64,000 nucleotides of DNA from Bacteroidota bacterium (GTDB lineage: Bacteria > Bacteroidota > Bacteroidia > NS11-12g > UBA9320). Positions within the stretch are counted from its first letter, which is position 1, and each line of letters starts with the position of its first letter. Of this stretch, positions 5,339 through 12,401 are shown piece after piece. The stretch is taken from NCBI GenBank assembly GCA_013359235.1, contig JABWCE010000001.1, positions 124,001-188,000 on the forward strand. Direction: 5' to 3'. Below the pieces are notes generated by a model that was given only the letters and a program-made list of their open reading frames with translations, made no database searches and was not told where the DNA came from. The position numbers were made by a program, and so were the translations under genes.

Positions 5339-6553
5339 TTAATTGTTATTGTCATTTTCTAAGGTTTTATCATCTTTTGTTAAACTTTGGCAATATTTTT
5401 CTAATTGTGTAGCTATGATATCCCAGTTGAACTTAGAAGTTGCTATTTCTTTCCCTTTTATTCCACAAGTTTCTCTTTGCATTTTTGAATCTAAAAGTTC
5501 AATGATTTTTGCAGCAAATAATTGAGGGTCTGTTTCCATAAATGCACCCATACCATTTTCAATTTCGAGCCCTTCAAAGCCAACATTAGTGCAAACTACA
5601 GGTATTCCCATAGCCATAGCTTCTATAACTTTATTTTGAGTGCCTGCACCAAATCGCAATGAAGAAACTACTACTGCTGCCTTGCTGTAATATTCGCCCA
5701 GATTTTTTACAAATCCGGTAACAACAATATTGCTACAGGCAAGATTTCTCACTTGTTTTACAGGCTTTTGCCCGGCTATAACAAATATTACATCGGATTT
5801 TATTTTCAATACCAACGGAAAAATTTCTTTAGTAAAATATACAACTGCATCCACATTCGGAGCATAATTCATATTTCCCGTAAACAGCAACACATTATCA
5901 ATTCCGTAGTTGTGTATTGTGTTTCCATACAATTCCAAATCAACACCATTTCTTAAAATTGCTACATTATTGCTTTTGTGTTCGTATTTTAAGTAATTCA
6001 AATCTTCTTTAGAACATACAAGACCAAGATTAAATTTACTTAAAATATGCTTTTCGTATTTATAAATTCGGTTGAATTCAATTTTTTGAAAAATTTTAAG
6101 AATAAAATTTGAACTTTTTTCAATTCTGCGTTTCCAATATAATGAGAAGGCATCGGGCAAATCAAGTATTCTGGGAATTGCTATTTCAGAAGTAAACTGA
6201 GCCATTCGCAAATGCTGAGTATGAATTACATCAATTTTGTTTTTGGCAACAAAATCTTCTAATGTATTTTTCATTTTATTGCTTTTGAAATAAGCTATTT
6301 GTAACGAAACATCCGAAAATATTGCCAAAAAACTGTTAAAATACGATTTCCATTTAGGCAGATATATAATTTTTACAGTTTTAAAAATATTTTCAAGTTC
6401 AGCTTTATACTTTAAATCTAATTTGGTTTCAGCAAAGGTAATCAAGTACAATTCGTTGTTTGTGCAGAGCCTTTTTGCAAGATTATAAATTTTAAGTTTG
6501 TCGCCTCTGTATGGCGGATAAGGAATCCTATTGGCAACAAATAAAATTTTCAT
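5339..6553 (-). CDS. glycosyltransferase family 4
   Basis: A 404-residue cytoplasmic glycosyltransferase of GT-B fold. The start MKILFVANRIPYPPYRGDKL is typical of GT4 enzymes that recognise a nucleotide-sugar acceptor system. The C-terminal half carries LLFTGNMNYAPNVDAV and a donor-binding region around PLRFGAGTQNKVIEAMAMG-like sequence (here SLRFGAGTQNKVIEAMAMG). It resembles the Stp1-like subgroup of sugar transferases, but substrate cannot be read from sequence. No other polysaccharide genes are next to it; the capsule locus in this window begins 52 kb away. Confidence 0.85.
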   Translation of the reverse strand: MKILFVANRIPYPPYRGDKLKIYNLAKRLCTNNELYLITFAETKLDLKYKAELENIFKTVKIIYLPKWKSYFNSFLAIFSDVSLQIAYFKSNKMKNTLEDFVAKNKIDVIHTQHLRMAQFTSEIAIPRILDLPDAFSLYWKRRIEKSSNFILKIFQKIEFNRIYKYEKHILSKFNLGLVCSKEDLNYLKYEHKSNNVAILRNGVDLELYGNTIHNYGIDNVLLFTGNMNYAPNVDAVVYFTKEIFPLVLKIKSDVIFVIAGQKPVKQVRNLACSNIVVTGFVKNLGEYYSKAAVVVSSLRFGAGTQNKVIEAMAMGIPVVCTNVGFEGLEIENGMGAFMETDPQLFAAKIIELLDSKMQRETCGIKGKEIATSKFNWDIIATQLEKYCQSLTKDDKTLENDNNN

Positions 6554-6573: not shown

Positions 6574-6623
6574 ATATAAAAAAATTGCGATTTAAATGGT
6601 TTAGCATATTGAATAAACCTTAT

Positions 6624-6721
6624 TCATGTTTACCCCAAAAACAAATAAATTTACAATAGAAAGATTTTAAATAGTTTTGTAAATAAAAATCAACAATGAA
6701 TTGGAAAATAACATCAGGATT
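6624..6721 (+). repeat. direct repeat copy A upstream of the helicase fusion
   Basis: This block matches 11663-11783 in the same orientation. Shared runs include CCCAAAAACAAATAAATTTA, AAGATTTTAAATAGTTTTGT and AATAAAAATCAACAATG, followed by a matching TTGGAAAATAA and ATCAGGATTA. Copy A lacks about 22 nt that copy B carries in its middle. The two copies bracket the 4.8-kb helicase gene. There are no terminal inverted repeats and no transposase. Confidence 0.85.
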
Positions 6722-6834
6722 ATCATTTAAAACTGCATTTTTTTTTCAGGATGAGATAGCGACTTTTTGGGCAACAATTAATAATTTAAATAGAAAACAA
6801 AAGACTATTACCAAATATATTCAGCAAATAGAAA

Positions 6835-9800
6835 ATGAATTCAATTGCATTCATTGATACCGAGATTGAGCCAAAGAGCCGAAAAATTCTTGACATTGGA
6901 AGTGTCAAGGGTGATGGAAGTTCTTTTCACAAAACTTCGGTTGCTGAGTTCATACAGTTTCTTAATGGGACTGAATTTATTTGCGGACACAATATTTTCA
7001 ATCACGACATAAAGTTTATTGGAAAGGCATTGACCGATGCAGGAGTTAATTCTGAAAACATCATTGACACTTTATTTCTTTCTCCCCTGCTATTTCCGAC
7101 AAAGCCGTATCATGCTTTATTAAAAGATGACAAACTTCAATCAGAAGACAGGAACAATCCTTTGAATGATTCAATCAAAGCAAAAGATTTATTCAATGAT
7201 GAAGTTGCAGCATTTAAACAAACTGACGAAACACTCAAACAAATTTTCTATTTGCTTTTGAAAGACAAGAAGGAGTTCCGCTCCTTTTTCCGTTTCATCG
7301 CATTCACAAGTTCAGGCACAGACCTTGAAAAACTGATTCGCCAGAAATTTGAAAATGAAATTTGTGAACATGTTGACCTGACAAAAATAATTTCAGAACA
7401 GCCGATTGAACTTGCTTACTGCTTATCACTTGTTAGTTCATTTATTGAACACAATAAAATTCATTCAATTACACCGCCTTGGGTGTTGAAAAACTATCCC
7501 GAAGTGGAACGGATAATGTTTCGTTTAAGAAACAAACCTTGTGTAAGCGGTTGTGAATACTGTAATCAGGCATTAGATGTAAATAAAGGCTTAAAAAGAT
7601 TTTTCGGTTTTGATTCTTACCGAAGTTATGGTGGCGAACCATTACAAGAAAAAGCAGTTAAAGCAACTATTAACAATAAATCAATTCTTGCTGTTTTTCC
7701 AACAGGAGGAGGAAAGTCAATCACGTTTCAAGTTCCATCTTTGATGAGCGGAGAAACTTCAAAAGGTTTAACAATTGTGATTTCGCCTTTGCAATCATTG
7801 ATGAAAGACCAGGTTGACAATCTTGAAAAAATTGGAATTACAGATGCAGTTACCATAAATGGTTTGCTTGACCCGATTGAAAGAGCGAAATCTTTTGAAA
7901 GAGTTGAAGATGGTTCAGCTTCTATTCTTTACATCTCTCCTGAATCATTGCGTTCACGAACAATTGAACGATTGATTTTGGGAAGAAAAATTGTTCGTTT
8001 TGTTATAGATGAAGCACACTGCTTTTCTTCGTGGGGACAAGATTTCAGAGTTGATTATTTATACATCGGTGATTTCATCAAACAAATTCAGGAAAAGAAA
8101 AATCTTGAAGATGGAATTCCAGTTTCATGTTTCACAGCAACAGCGAAACAAAAAGTTATTGAGGATATTCGTGACTACTTCAAAGAAAAACTTTCGCTTG
8201 ACCTTGAACTGTTCACTTCAAAAGCATCAAGAACAAATCTTCAATACAAAGTTTTTGAGAAAGGAGACGAAGAAGAAAAGTATCAGGCAGCAAGAGATTT
8301 GATTGAGGAGAAGAATTGTCCGACTATCATTTATGTTTCAAGGACACGAAAAGCATATTCACTTGCAGAACGCTTAACTGAAGATGGGTTCAACGCCAAA
8401 CCTTATCACGGCAAAATGGATGTTAAAGAAAAAACGGCTAACCAAAATGCTTTCATATCAGGCGAAGTTCCAATCATGGTTGCAACTTCTGCTTTTGGAA
8501 TGGGAGTTGACAAAAAAGATGTTGGCATGGTGATTCACTATGAGATTTCCGATTCACTTGAAAACTATATTCAGGAAGCAGGGAGAGCAGGACGAGATGA
8601 AAATATTGTTGCTGATTGTTTCGTGTTGTTTAACGAGGAAGACCTTAGTAAACATTTCATACTGTTGAATCAAACCAAACTTTCAATCAAAGAGATTCAA
8701 CAGATTTGGAAAGCGATAAAAGAAATTACAAGATTTCGTTCAACAGTTTCAAATTCCGCTTTAGAGATTGCACGAAAAGCGGGTTGGGATGATAATGTTG
8801 TTGAAATTGAAACGAGAGTTATTACAGCCATTGCAGCTTTGGAAGACGCAGGATACTTGAAACGTGGACAAAATATGCCGAGAATTTTTGCCAACAGTAT
8901 TCTTTCAAAAAATGCACAGGAAGCTATTGACAAAATCAATGCTTCCGAAAGATTTGAGGAGAGGCAAAAAGAAAAGGGAATAAGAATTATCAAGAAACTT
9001 TTTTCAAGTAAAAGCAGGAAGCAAACAAATGATGAAACTGGCGAATCAAGGATTGATTATATCAGCGACCATCTTGGAATTGTAAAAGAAGAAGTGATAA
9101 ACATTGTGAATCTTCTTCGTGAGGAAAAGATTTTGGCTGATGCAAAGGACTTAACTGCTTTTATTAAGAAAGGAGAAAACAAAAACCGTTCTCTTAATAT
9201 TGTTGAGGCATTTAGTAAGATTGAGCATTTCTTGCTTCCATTTTTTGAGGAACAGGAAAAAACATTTCACATAAAAGAACTAAATGAAGAAGCCGAATCA
9301 AAAGGTTGCGAAGATGTAACTACGAACAAACTTAAAACCATTATCAACTTTTGGGCAATCAAGAATTGGATTAAGCGACAGAATCTTGAGTACTCAAAAA
9401 ATCATGTTGTGATTCTCTCTCTGCATCCAAGAGAAATGTTGAAGGAAAAATTAGAGAAGCGACATGAATTGGCTAAGTTCACAGTTGAGTATCTTTATGA
9501 TAAAAGCAATCTGAATATTTCAGAAGATGATAAAGACAAGGAAGAAGTTTTGGTTGAGTTTTCAGTTCACGAACTGAAAGAAGAATTTGAAAAACGACCA
9601 AAACTTTTTGAAATGCATGTATCATTTGAAGATATTGAGGACACACTTTTTTATCTTTTAAGAATTGATGCCATAAAAATTGAAGGAGGATTTCTTGTTG
9701 TCTATAATAAACTGACCATTGAACGAGTTGAACAAGACAACTATAAAAAATATACGAAGGAAGATTATCGGATGTTAAATCAATTTTACGAAAACAAAGT

Positions 9801-11655
9801 TCAGCAAATTCATATTGTTGGAGAGTATGCAAAGAAGATGATAGACGATTACAAGGATGCTCTTCAATTTGTAGAAGATTACTTTCAGTTGAATTATACT
9901 TCATTTCTAAGAAAATACTTTCCGGGAAGCAAGATTGATAATTTAAAACTCAAAATGACACCTGGAAAATTCAGACAACTTTTCGGAGAGCTTTCACCAT
10001 CACAATTAAAAATCATTAATGACAACGAATCCAAATATATTGTTGTAGCCGCTGGACCTGGAAGTGGTAAAACAAAAGTGTTGGTTCATAAACTTGCTTC
10101 TTTGCTTTTAATGGAAGATGTTAAACATGAGCAATTACTTATGCTTACCTTTTCAAGAGCAGCAGCAACAGAATTTAAGAAACGATTACTTAAACTCATT
10201 GGTAATGCTGCCAATTACATTGAGATAAAAACTTTTCACTCCTATTGTTTTGACCTGTTAGGCAAGGTTGGAAGTTTAGAAAAATCAGATGTGATATTGA
10301 AAAAGACGATTGAGAAAATCAAAAACAAGGAAGTTGAAGCAAGCAGAATCACAAAAACTGTTTTGGTGATTGATGAGGCACAGGACATGGATGAAGATGA
10401 GTTTAATCTGATAAATACGTTGAGGGAACAAAATGAGGAAATGAGAGTGATTGCAGTCGGTGATGATGACCAAAATATTTACGAGTTCAGAGGAGCAAGC
10501 TCAAAATATCTTGAAATGTTTATTGAAGTAAACAAAGCAACCAAACATGAGTTGGTTGAAAATTACAGAAGCAAGAGCAACCTTGTTGATTTCACAAACC
10601 AGTTTGTGAAGCGAATTCAACACCGGCTGAAAGGCACCCCAATTATTCCAAAACAAACAGAAAATGGAAGAATAAAATTGGTTCGGTACCAAAGCAATAA
10701 TCTAATTACACCGCTTGTACAAGATATACGCTCGACCGGACTTACAGGAACTACTTGTGTACTGACAAAGACAAATGAGGAAGCATTACTAATTACCGGG
10801 CAACTTTTGAAAAAAGGTGTGCAAGCGAAGCTCATCCAGACCAATGACAGTTTCAGCTTAATTAACCTTTTGGAAGTTAGATTCTTTTTAAGCCAGTTGA
10901 GCTTAGCTGATGATGTTTTCATAATCAACGATGAAGTTTGGGCTAATGCAAAGCGGGTATTGTTAAGCAAGTTTCGGAACAGTACAAAATTAGAAGTTTG
11001 CCAAAACATCATTAACGATTTTGAAGCCACCAATCCAAAGAAGAAATACAAATCTGATTTTGAAGCTTTCATTCGTGAATCCAAGTTGGAAGATTTCATT
11101 AATGAGAATGGAGAAACAATTTTAGTTTCAACTATTCACAAAGCCAAGGGCAAAGAGTTTGACAATGTTTTCCTGATGCTTGAAAACTTCAACATTGCAA
11201 CAGACGAAGCCATACGGCTGTTGTATGTGGCAATGACAAGGGCGAAACAAAATTTGACCATTCATTTAAACTCAAACTTTCTTGACAATATAAAAAGAGA
11301 AAATTTAGAGCGAGTTGTTGATAGTGAAATCTATATGCGATCGGATGAGTTAATAATGAACTTAACACATGAAGATGTCAATCTTGGATATTTTGAATAT
11401 GTTCAGCATCGTTTAAAAGATAGCATTAGTGGAGACGAACTTGTTGTGCAGAATGACGGATGTGCAAATTCAAATGGTGATTTGGTATTAAAGTTTTCAA
11501 AGAAGTTACTCGAAACTATTCAAAAACATAAGGAGATTGGATTTGAATTGAAAAGTGCAAAAATAAATTTCGTTGTTTACTGGTTTAAAGAGGAATCTGA
11601 ACAAGAGATTAATATTATTTTACCTGAATTATACTTTGAAAGGAGGCATGGATAA
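6835..11655 (+). CDS. DEDD exonuclease - RecQ helicase - UvrD-like helicase fusion
   Basis: A 1606-residue single polypeptide in three parts. (1) Residues 1-125 look like a DEDD 3'-5' exonuclease: D8 and E10 in FIDTE, D58 in GHNIFNHD, then PYHALLKDD and NPLNDS. (2) Residues about 250-600 are an SF2 RecQ core: FFGFDSYRSYGGEPLQEKA, Walker A PTGGGKS with K294, DEAH at 392-395, QEAGRAGRD at 580-588. The classical RecQ zinc-binding cysteines are absent after it. (3) Residues about 1050-1500 are an SF1 UvrD/Rep core: AGPGSGKT with K1079, DEAQ at 1180-1183, GDDDQNIYEFRGA, STIHKAKGKEFD at about 1432, LLYVAMTRAK. A Cys cluster C236-x3-C240-x2-C243 precedes the RecQ part. The gene sits alone between direct repeats and looks somewhat richer in GC than its neighbours. 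A role in DNA repair or in defence against phage/plasmid DNA is inference. Confidence 0.9.
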   Translation: MNSIAFIDTEIEPKSRKILDIGSVKGDGSSFHKTSVAEFIQFLNGTEFICGHNIFNHDIKFIGKALTDAGVNSENIIDTLFLSPLLFPTKPYHALLKDDKLQSEDRNNPLNDSIKAKDLFNDEVAAFKQTDETLKQIFYLLLKDKKEFRSFFRFIAFTSSGTDLEKLIRQKFENEICEHVDLTKIISEQPIELAYCLSLVSSFIEHNKIHSITPPWVLKNYPEVERIMFRLRNKPCVSGCEYCNQALDVNKGLKRFFGFDSYRSYGGEPLQEKAVKATINNKSILAVFPTGGGKSITFQVPSLMSGETSKGLTIVISPLQSLMKDQVDNLEKIGITDAVTINGLLDPIERAKSFERVEDGSASILYISPESLRSRTIERLILGRKIVRFVIDEAHCFSSWGQDFRVDYLYIGDFIKQIQEKKNLEDGIPVSCFTATAKQKVIEDIRDYFKEKLSLDLELFTSKASRTNLQYKVFEKGDEEEKYQAARDLIEEKNCPTIIYVSRTRKAYSLAERLTEDGFNAKPYHGKMDVKEKTANQNAFISGEVPIMVATSAFGMGVDKKDVGMVIHYEISDSLENYIQEAGRAGRDENIVADCFVLFNEEDLSKHFILLNQTKLSIKEIQQIWKAIKEITRFRSTVSNSALEIARKAGWDDNVVEIETRVITAIAALEDAGYLKRGQNMPRIFANSILSKNAQEAIDKINASERFEERQKEKGIRIIKKLFSSKSRKQTNDETGESRIDYISDHLGIVKEEVINIVNLLREEKILADAKDLTAFIKKGENKNRSLNIVEAFSKIEHFLLPFFEEQEKTFHIKELNEEAESKGCEDVTTNKLKTIINFWAIKNWIKRQNLEYSKNHVVILSLHPREMLKEKLEKRHELAKFTVEYLYDKSNLNISEDDKDKEEVLVEFSVHELKEEFEKRPKLFEMHVSFEDIEDTLFYLLRIDAIKIEGGFLVVYNKLTIERVEQDNYKKYTKEDYRMLNQFYENKVQQIHIVGEYAKKMIDDYKDALQFVEDYFQLNYTSFLRKYFPGSKIDNLKLKMTPGKFRQLFGELSPSQLKIINDNESKYIVVAAGPGSGKTKVLVHKLASLLLMEDVKHEQLLMLTFSRAAATEFKKRLLKLIGNAANYIEIKTFHSYCFDLLGKVGSLEKSDVILKKTIEKIKNKEVEASRITKTVLVIDEAQDMDEDEFNLINTLREQNEEMRVIAVGDDDQNIYEFRGASSKYLEMFIEVNKATKHELVENYRSKSNLVDFTNQFVKRIQHRLKGTPIIPKQTENGRIKLVRYQSNNLITPLVQDIRSTGLTGTTCVLTKTNEEALLITGQLLKKGVQAKLIQTNDSFSLINLLEVRFFLSQLSLADDVFIINDEVWANAKRVLLSKFRNSTKLEVCQNIINDFEATNPKKKYKSDFEAFIRESKLEDFINENGETILVSTIHKAKGKEFDNVFLMLENFNIATDEAIRLLYVAMTRAKQNLTIHLNSNFLDNIKRENLERVVDSEIYMRSDELIMNLTHEDVNLGYFEYVQHRLKDSISGDELVVQNDGCANSNGDLVLKFSKKLLETIQKHKEIGFELKSAKINFVVYWFKEESEQEINIILPELYFERRHG

Positions 11656-11662
11656 TTCTAAT

Positions 11663-11783
11663 ACATGTTTGTCCCAAAAACAAATAAATTTACAATAAAA
11701 AAGATTTTAAATAGTTTTGTAAACTGTAAAAAATACTTATTGTAAATAAAAATCAACAATGTATTGGAAAATAATATCAGGAT
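11663..11783 (+). repeat. direct repeat copy B downstream of the helicase fusion
   Basis: Same-orientation partner of 6624-6721, starting 8 bp after the helicase stop codon. It contains about 22 extra bases after AAATAGTTTTGTAAA, around an ACTTATTGTAAA segment that partly duplicates the flanking GTAAA. It ends just inside the intergenic space before engB. The pair suggests insertion or recombination rather than a shared promoter, because only one copy precedes a plus-strand gene. Confidence 0.85.
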
Positions 11784-11807
11784 TAACGCTAAAAACCTAT
11801 CAATCTG

Positions 11808-12401
11808 TTATTTGTTAAAACAATCTGATATAAATTTTAAAATTTCTATTTTGCCTTGCCCATTTAAAGCAGATGTGCAAATTAAAGGTGGTATATTTTC
11901 CCAATATTTTCTCAGTTCATCTTTCATTTTTTGAACATTTTGATTAACAAATTTGCCTTTATCCTTATCGGTTTTTGTAAAAATTAAACAAATAGGCACA
12001 CGGTTTTCTCCGCATTTATTGATAAATTCAATATCAGATTTTTGAGGTTCAAGCCTGCTGTCAACCAGAATAAAAAGGCAATACAGATTTTTACGGCAAA
12101 TTATGTAATTATTTATAAGTTCTTCAAATTTGCTTCTTTCTGTTTTTGAAACTCTTGCATACCCATACCCTGGTAAATCGGCAAAATATATCGAGTCGTT
12201 TATAAAAAATTGATTTATAAGTTTGGTTTTACCTGGCATTGACGATGTTTTTGCCAAATCTTTTTTATTGCAAATCATATTTATTAACGAAGATTTACCC
12301 ACATTGCTTCGCCCAATAAAAGCAAATTCGGCAAATTGGTCATCTTTCATCTTTTTGCAATCATCAAATGATTTGAGAAAAACAGCTTTTTTAATTTCCA
12401 T
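11808..12401 (-). CDS. engB: ribosome biogenesis GTP-binding protein YsxC/EngB
   Basis: A 197-residue TRAFAC-class GTPase used in large-subunit ribosome assembly. G1 is GRSNVGKSS (residues 30-38), G3 is DLPGYG (75-80), G4 is TKTD (142-145), and a late SALNG forms G5. Length and motif spacing fit the EngB/YihA family. It is transcribed away from ubiE across about 90 bp. The minus strand holds a near-consensus AATCTTTG before the start. Confidence 0.95.
   Translation of the reverse strand: MEIKKAVFLKSFDDCKKMKDDQFAEFAFIGRSNVGKSSLINMICNKKDLAKTSSMPGKTKLINQFFINDSIYFADLPGYGYARVSKTERSKFEELINNYIICRKNLYCLFILVDSRLEPQKSDIEFINKCGENRVPICLIFTKTDKDKGKFVNQNVQKMKDELRKYWENIPPLICTSALNGQGKIEILKFISDCFNK

Follow-up and report, generated by a model that had tools for sequence, protein, structure and literature searches.

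The gene at positions 6835–11655 (+ strand) of the window, the 64,000-nt stretch of Bacteroidota DNA that was analyzed, encodes a single chain of 1606 residues carrying a predicted DnaQ-like exonuclease, a RecQ-type helicase core and a compact UvrD-type helicase. Comparison with its relatives indicates that the gene is accessory and has moved horizontally between orders and phyla. Its architecture, motifs, selection, patchiness and transfer, together with defense-enriched neighbors and optional HNH or methyltransferase-HIT genes, lead us to favor, with slightly better than even confidence, a horizontally spread single-protein helicase-nuclease that would act against invading DNA.

Domain architecture of the fusion protein

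The open reading frame begins with ATG and runs through its 1606 codons without an internal stop. ORF, domain and motif searches agree with the original prediction of three modules with intact helicase motifs in one isolated gene: the motifs of both helicase cores were located completely in the translation, and the fusion gene stands alone, as both flanking genes (5339–6553 and 11808–12401) lie on the opposite strand. Comparison with six close relatives yielded dN/dS values of 0.06–0.09; this purifying selection indicates that the gene has been kept functional. The mildly different base composition noted earlier was found as well, with a GC content of 34.8% versus 31.3% for the window and a third-position GC of 30.5%, the highest among 27 genes measured. 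A small ORF of 53 codons (6696–6857, + strand) overlaps the start of the fusion gene; this candidate may not be a genuine gene and was not seen upstream of relatives of the fusion gene.

The N-terminal domain (residues 1–130; 6835–7224, + strand) is predicted, though not with certainty, to be a DnaQ-like DEDD exonuclease on the basis of invariant columns, a profile match and the layout of the model. Searched alone it gave no Pfam match. It contains the motifs D8/E10, GHNxxxxD58, IDTL, PYHxLxK and NxPxxD112, and the DEDD metal ligands D8, E10, D58 and D112 are invariant in 20 out of 20 relatives, some of them 27–29% identical to the window protein. A profile of 20 relatives matched DEDDh exonucleases of known structure, with PolC as the best hit (E 2.8e-4), and DEDDh, DnaQ and Cas2-DEDDh chains at E 0.007–0.04; the predicted structure shows the beta-beta-beta-alpha layout. 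In DnaQ-like enzymes the ExoIII motif supplies a general base, His in H-x4-D or Tyr in Y-x3-D. The usual place of the general-base histidine, five residues before D112, is occupied by Asn107, and the spacing of the DEDDh histidine is not canonical, so that exonuclease activity is a prediction. His93 is invariant and may take the role of the general base.

Residues 253–620 (7591–8694, + strand) form a RecQ-type SF2 helicase core according to TIGR00614, motifs and Foldseek. The motifs GGGKS, DEAH, FTATA and QEAGRAGR and the aromatic loop SSWGQDFR are present, so the core has both the aromatic-rich loop and the motif VI (QxxGRAGR) by which RecQ family members are recognized. TIGR00614 matches residues 253–617 (E 9.5e-80; 268.6 bits versus a curated cut-off of 219.8). 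A structure model of residues 1–660 reached a mean pLDDT of 80 and its best PDB matches were RecQ catalytic cores; Foldseek aligned the core to the RecQ structures 6crm, 4tmu and 1oyw at E values of ∼2e-25 to 4e-24. Neither the zinc-binding RQC domain that follows the core nor HRDC gave a Pfam match in the fusion protein, which also falls below the cut-off of TIGR01389 (312 versus 640 bits). Judged by these sequence features, the fusion is a RecQ-core protein and not a canonical RecQ. Directly before the core lies a cysteine cluster, C236-x3-C240-x2-C243 (7540–7563, + strand), whose three cysteines are invariant in 45 members of the Bacteroidota clade; it is possibly a metal site that replaces the RecQ zinc domain expected after the core. 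The genome of the window (G000) encodes two further RecQ proteins (contig C6, 77038–78120, and contig C37, 59339–60406; frames of 732 and 642 aa), and the fusion is thus not the sole RecQ there.

The second helicase (residues 1052–1480; 9988–11274, + strand) is a compact UvrD/GajB-like SF1A enzyme by Pfam, PADLOC, Foldseek and motifs. UvrD-helicase (PF00580) matches from residue 1054 (E 1.4e-32) and UvrD_C (PF13361) up to residue 1480 (E 4.3e-22), and the SF1A motifs I–VI of the UvrD/Rep/PcrA group are all present (GPGSGKT, DEAQ, GDDDQ, YRS, STIHKAKGKEFD and YVAMTRA). Subdomain 1B, located between motifs Ib and II, is missing: ∼45 residues separate TFHS from DEAQ. PcrA 6–101 aligns to fusion residues 1047–1143 and Rep 175–294 to residues 1142–1261; as these stretches adjoin, the intervening part of ∼73 residues is absent from the fusion. 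The absence of 1B would suit a stripped-down translocase. Among PADLOC models, the DRT-associated helicase and GajB come closest to this helicase. For residues 641–1606 the predicted structure was poor (pLDDT 65, pTM 0.34) and was used solely for the UvrD match; Foldseek of this second half listed UvrD, PcrA and Rep first, then AdnB and GajB, and also AddA and RecB, with E values of 2.5e-6 to 1.3e-4 for the GajB structures. RecQ and UvrD/PcrA/Rep motors both move 3′→5′, which makes the earlier suggestion that the chain unwinds DNA with both polarities unlikely.

Two parts of the chain are without a recognized domain. The middle region between the RecQ core and the UvrD part (∼425 residues, 621–1045; 8695–9969, + strand) has no significant Pfam match; its start, at residues 641–680, appears to be winged-helix-like. 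The C-terminal ∼115 residues (1490–1606; 11302–11652, + strand) likewise gave nothing significant in Pfam, and were modeled as a beta-rich domain with a pLDDT of ∼85–90 over most of its length. It could represent a novel domain for binding DNA or a partner.

Direct repeats at the boundaries of the gene

The fusion gene is bounded by imperfect direct repeats, in line with its earlier description as a lone, repeat-flanked gene. The left copy (124 nt; 6610–6733, + strand) and the right copy (148 nt; 11649–11796, + strand), which begins at the gene end, share blocks of 81–89% identity with one insertion of 23 nt. Each carries a Bacteroidota-type TAnnTTTG motif (at 6672–6679 in the left copy) that would, from its consensus, be a promoter. 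A short sequence, ATCAGGATTATCATTAAAA, is common to both repeats (6696–6733 and 11759–11796) and to a few other genome sites (L192 near 1501 and L193 near 1500); one of these sites is the beginning of a 484-codon ORF. Full-length copies occur in the genome only at the fusion gene and the short core at a few other places, and a dispersed element was therefore rejected. In sister species the repeat was not found at the syntenic place, and a simple target-site duplication could therefore not be demonstrated. The manner in which the fusion gene was inserted or duplicated may be recorded in these repeats.

The neighbors in the window are ordinary genes (EngB, UbiE-like) and do not form a defense island. 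At a guess from 21 matches in 30 bases to one relative, positions 6811–6831 might preserve the final codons of an HNH gene that has otherwise been lost. The two-copy repeats and the small overlapping ORF suggest that the insertion site was rearranged and could be taken to mean that the gene is a decayed or chance remnant without function, but a frame of 1606 codons, helicase motifs that are all intact and a dN/dS below 0.1 against six relatives make this reading very improbable.

Patchy distribution and horizontal transfer

At least 80 genome records contain the same architecture at 67–87% identity, nearly all of them full-length. These close relatives are found in Bacteroidota, including a Flammeovirgaceae protein 87% identical to that of the window, and in Brocadia (two assemblies), Fibrobacter and Syntrophaceae with 69–78% identity; as some records are metagenome bins, contamination is possible for single cross-phylum cases. 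More diverged relatives (28–50%) occur in Proteobacteria, Cyanobacteria and Aliarcobacter, and on plasmids of Bacteroides, Aliarcobacter, Rhodobacterales, rhizobia, Thiothrix, Allochromatium and Nostoc; for four of the plasmid relatives the Pfam domains were checked. With a gammaproteobacterial relative as query, a weak test, no DNA match was found in E. coli genomes.

Within its own lineage the gene is patchy, as would be expected of an acquired function. It is carried by 3 of 108 genomes of the order and 15 of 396 genomes of the phylum (12 of 172 genera); single genera have it in 10 of 250 and 2 of 6 genomes, and the window's own genus in 2 of 7. One conserved syntenic position in nearly all relatives, which would have spoken for a core gene, is clearly not what we found: in the other carrier of the genus (G006) the fusion gene and EngB are on separate contigs, and the other examined members of the genus contain the EngB-UbiE block without the fusion gene. 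On either side, homology to the closest relatives stops at the gene boundary or close to it. The window and a species of another family (G037) share 86% identity in the fusion protein and just 44% in EngB. A tree of 76 relatives mixes orders, with 31 order changes versus a minimum of 9. Patchy occurrence, horizontal movement, different loci within the genus and the flanking repeats thus bear out the original view of an acquired rather than core gene. Patchiness and transfer would fit any accessory gene and in this respect count against the specificity of a defense reading.

A gene that serves mobile elements, in plasmid replication, transfer or counter-defense, and is carried as their cargo, would also spread in this way. 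About 20–30 plasmid records carry the fusion, one copy adjoining parA/parB and replication genes, and long direct repeats flank the window copy. These plasmid records are just a few tens out of 72,556, many copies are located on large chromosomal-type contigs with varying neighbors, and the window copy adjoins neither an integrase nor a transposase. A scan of viral contigs, which reaches close relatives only, found none, and among phage records none covers 80% of the fusion protein; a phage origin was rejected on these two results. We regard service to mobile elements as improbable.

Neighboring genes and possible partners

We surveyed up to two genes per side of ∼80 relatives (254 proteins) with PADLOC models at E ≤ 1e-15, using as control 209 proteins located 90–200 kb from the fusion gene in the same genomes. 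Defense matches, counted by hand from tables, amounted to ∼28 of 254 neighbors versus ∼9 of 209 controls (∼11% versus 4%), some control matches being ordinary UvrD. This is an enrichment of ∼2.5-fold (odds ratio ∼2.8, Fisher p ∼0.009, on the hand-estimated counts), which we consider moderate. Of the two properties generally looked for in anti-phage systems, patchiness is thus clear and association with defense genes moderate. The matched neighbors comprise HNH, type I restriction–modification (RM), type IV restriction, type II restriction (a HindIII relative by Pfam), AbiD, AbiE, viperin, PD-T4-1 and several PDC candidates; type I RM recurs at five loci, McrBC at three and HipA-like genes at four (some named from sequence by eye). 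On plasmids, the copy of Allochromatium is located close to type I RM and that of Thiothrix close to cas6, while others have toxin–antitoxin genes nearby. The proposed association with defense genes therefore stands for the restriction, Abi, PDC, viperin and McrBC neighbors of relatives, but only at moderate enrichment and not for the window copy, which lies outside any defense island.

Two kinds of genes may be coupled to the fusion. An HNH_2 gene lies upstream and overlaps the fusion start by 4 nt in four loci (L021, L086, L087 and L141), and a more distant HNH_2 relative is located 27 nt upstream in L055. A methyltransferase-HIT protein is encoded beside the fusion gene in four other loci (L040, 8108–15561; L082, 8113–15654; L142, 5021–6031; L152, 7255–8107). 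In L040 and L082 a second HNH gene precedes the methyltransferase-HIT gene; in L152 the HIT gene is convergent and adjoins the fusion gene; in L142, which belongs to G006 of the same genus, the HIT and HNH relatives are short pieces only, ∼3–4 kb upstream. The L142 pieces look as if they are decaying. The nuclease gene upstream of methyltransferase-HIT is of the Cas9 type (HNH_4) in L040, with a relative in L082, and the HIT part shows a weak match to the PADLOC model ThsC. HNH, methyltransferase-HIT and exonuclease-RecQ-UvrD possibly constitute a three-gene system. Most copies, including that of the window, have no constant partner, and no HNH partner was found elsewhere in the window's own genome.

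Comparison with known systems

We found no description of the exonuclease-RecQ-UvrD architecture in the literature covered, which excluded subscription papers and included some narrow searches. The architecture is widespread under the name 'RecQ family ATP-dependent DNA helicase', contrary to the earlier notion that SF2 and SF1 cores are rarely fused. NCBI entries of this name with ∼1600–1756 aa (for example WP_022275194, WP_151029446 and WP_207249163) have the same helicase order at 28–50% identity; the designation is a name alone, for which no function was found described in the literature.

Several defense systems resemble parts of the fusion. GajB of Gabija and the DRT-associated helicase are compact UvrD-type SF1A enzymes like its C-terminal half. 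Unlike Gabija, the window gene comes without the OLD-family nuclease GajA and has a nuclease and a second helicase in its own chain; no GajA was seen among the PADLOC families listed for neighbors of relatives (the first 25 of each list). Gabija membership was rejected, since the match is confined to the helicase core and the window gene stands alone. The likeness to DpdF of the Dpd system and to PsyrT is confined to the RecQ core, and the partner genes are absent. Membership of Dpd (core match of 215 bits versus an NCBIfam cut-off of 550, gene alone) and of PsyrTA (helicase core matches only) was rejected as well. AdnAB, RecBCD and AddAB likewise unite two motors and a nuclease in one machine, but combine SF1 with SF1 and a RecB-type nuclease, whereas the fusion combines SF2 with SF1 and a DnaQ-type exonuclease.

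Human WRN, which is among the PDB sequence matches of the fusion, also has a DnaQ-like exonuclease followed by a RecQ helicase; it has no UvrD part, and the fusion lacks the RecQ zinc domain after the core. The WRN exonuclease belongs to another DEDD subgroup. The closest described object is a fusion of Thermus thermophilus HB27 (TT_RS10770, WP_011174436; L189, 8956–13905), a single chain of ∼1650 aa that unites a DnaQ-type exonuclease with RecQ and is encoded in a strain-variable region of the megaplasmid pTT27 with a cas3 gene nearby. Its second helicase is of the DinG type (Helicase_C_2), precedes RecQ and is not accompanied by UvrD; identity with the window protein was rejected for this DinG-type helicase. 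The largely dispensable pTT27 thus encodes, with DnaQ-DinG-RecQ, a second design of exonuclease plus two helicases.

These likenesses bear on the main rival of a defensive role, an accessory DNA repair or recombination enzyme that would handle the host's own ends or stalled forks as a WRN counterpart and would have spread for its benefit under damage or recombination. Both helicase families are repair enzymes, the order of exonuclease and RecQ resembles WRN, many copies have no evident defense neighbor, and the paper that reported the three-domain Thermus fusion compared repair genes and genome partitions (PMC1274311). Absence from 96–97% of relatives, heavy transfer, the two other RecQ proteins of the genome, a neighborhood rich in restriction and other defense genes and the coupling to HNH nucleases speak against it. 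We judge a repair role unlikely, but worth more weight than service to mobile elements.

Proposed function

If the protein acts in defense, it would load where the invader exposes DNA ends, gaps or forks; where a partner nuclease is coupled, its cut would give the loading site. The two 3′→5′ motors, the RecQ core and the stripped-down UvrD/GajB-like translocase, would then unwind the DNA, and the N-terminal DEDD exonuclease would remove the exposed 3′ strand. The fusion would be a one-chain analog of AdnAB/RecBCD-type or Gabija-type machines, outside those families.

A more far-reaching version, which we put forward tentatively and hold at somewhat less than even, is that the fusion represents an undescribed, phylum-crossing defense family: one polypeptide would hold every part of the attack machine (DEDD exonuclease, RecQ motor and minimal UvrD motor), and exchangeable upstream modules, HNH or HNH plus methyltransferase-HIT, would supply the cut or the sensing in some lineages. 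If this is true, a housekeeping name has concealed, across several phyla, a compact counterpart of RecBCD/Gabija-type machines that consists of one gene. The fusion would also be a test case for what two motors from different superfamilies do in one chain when both run in the same direction, and the HNH or methyltransferase-HIT partners present in some loci would offer a direct route to the trigger of the fusion protein.
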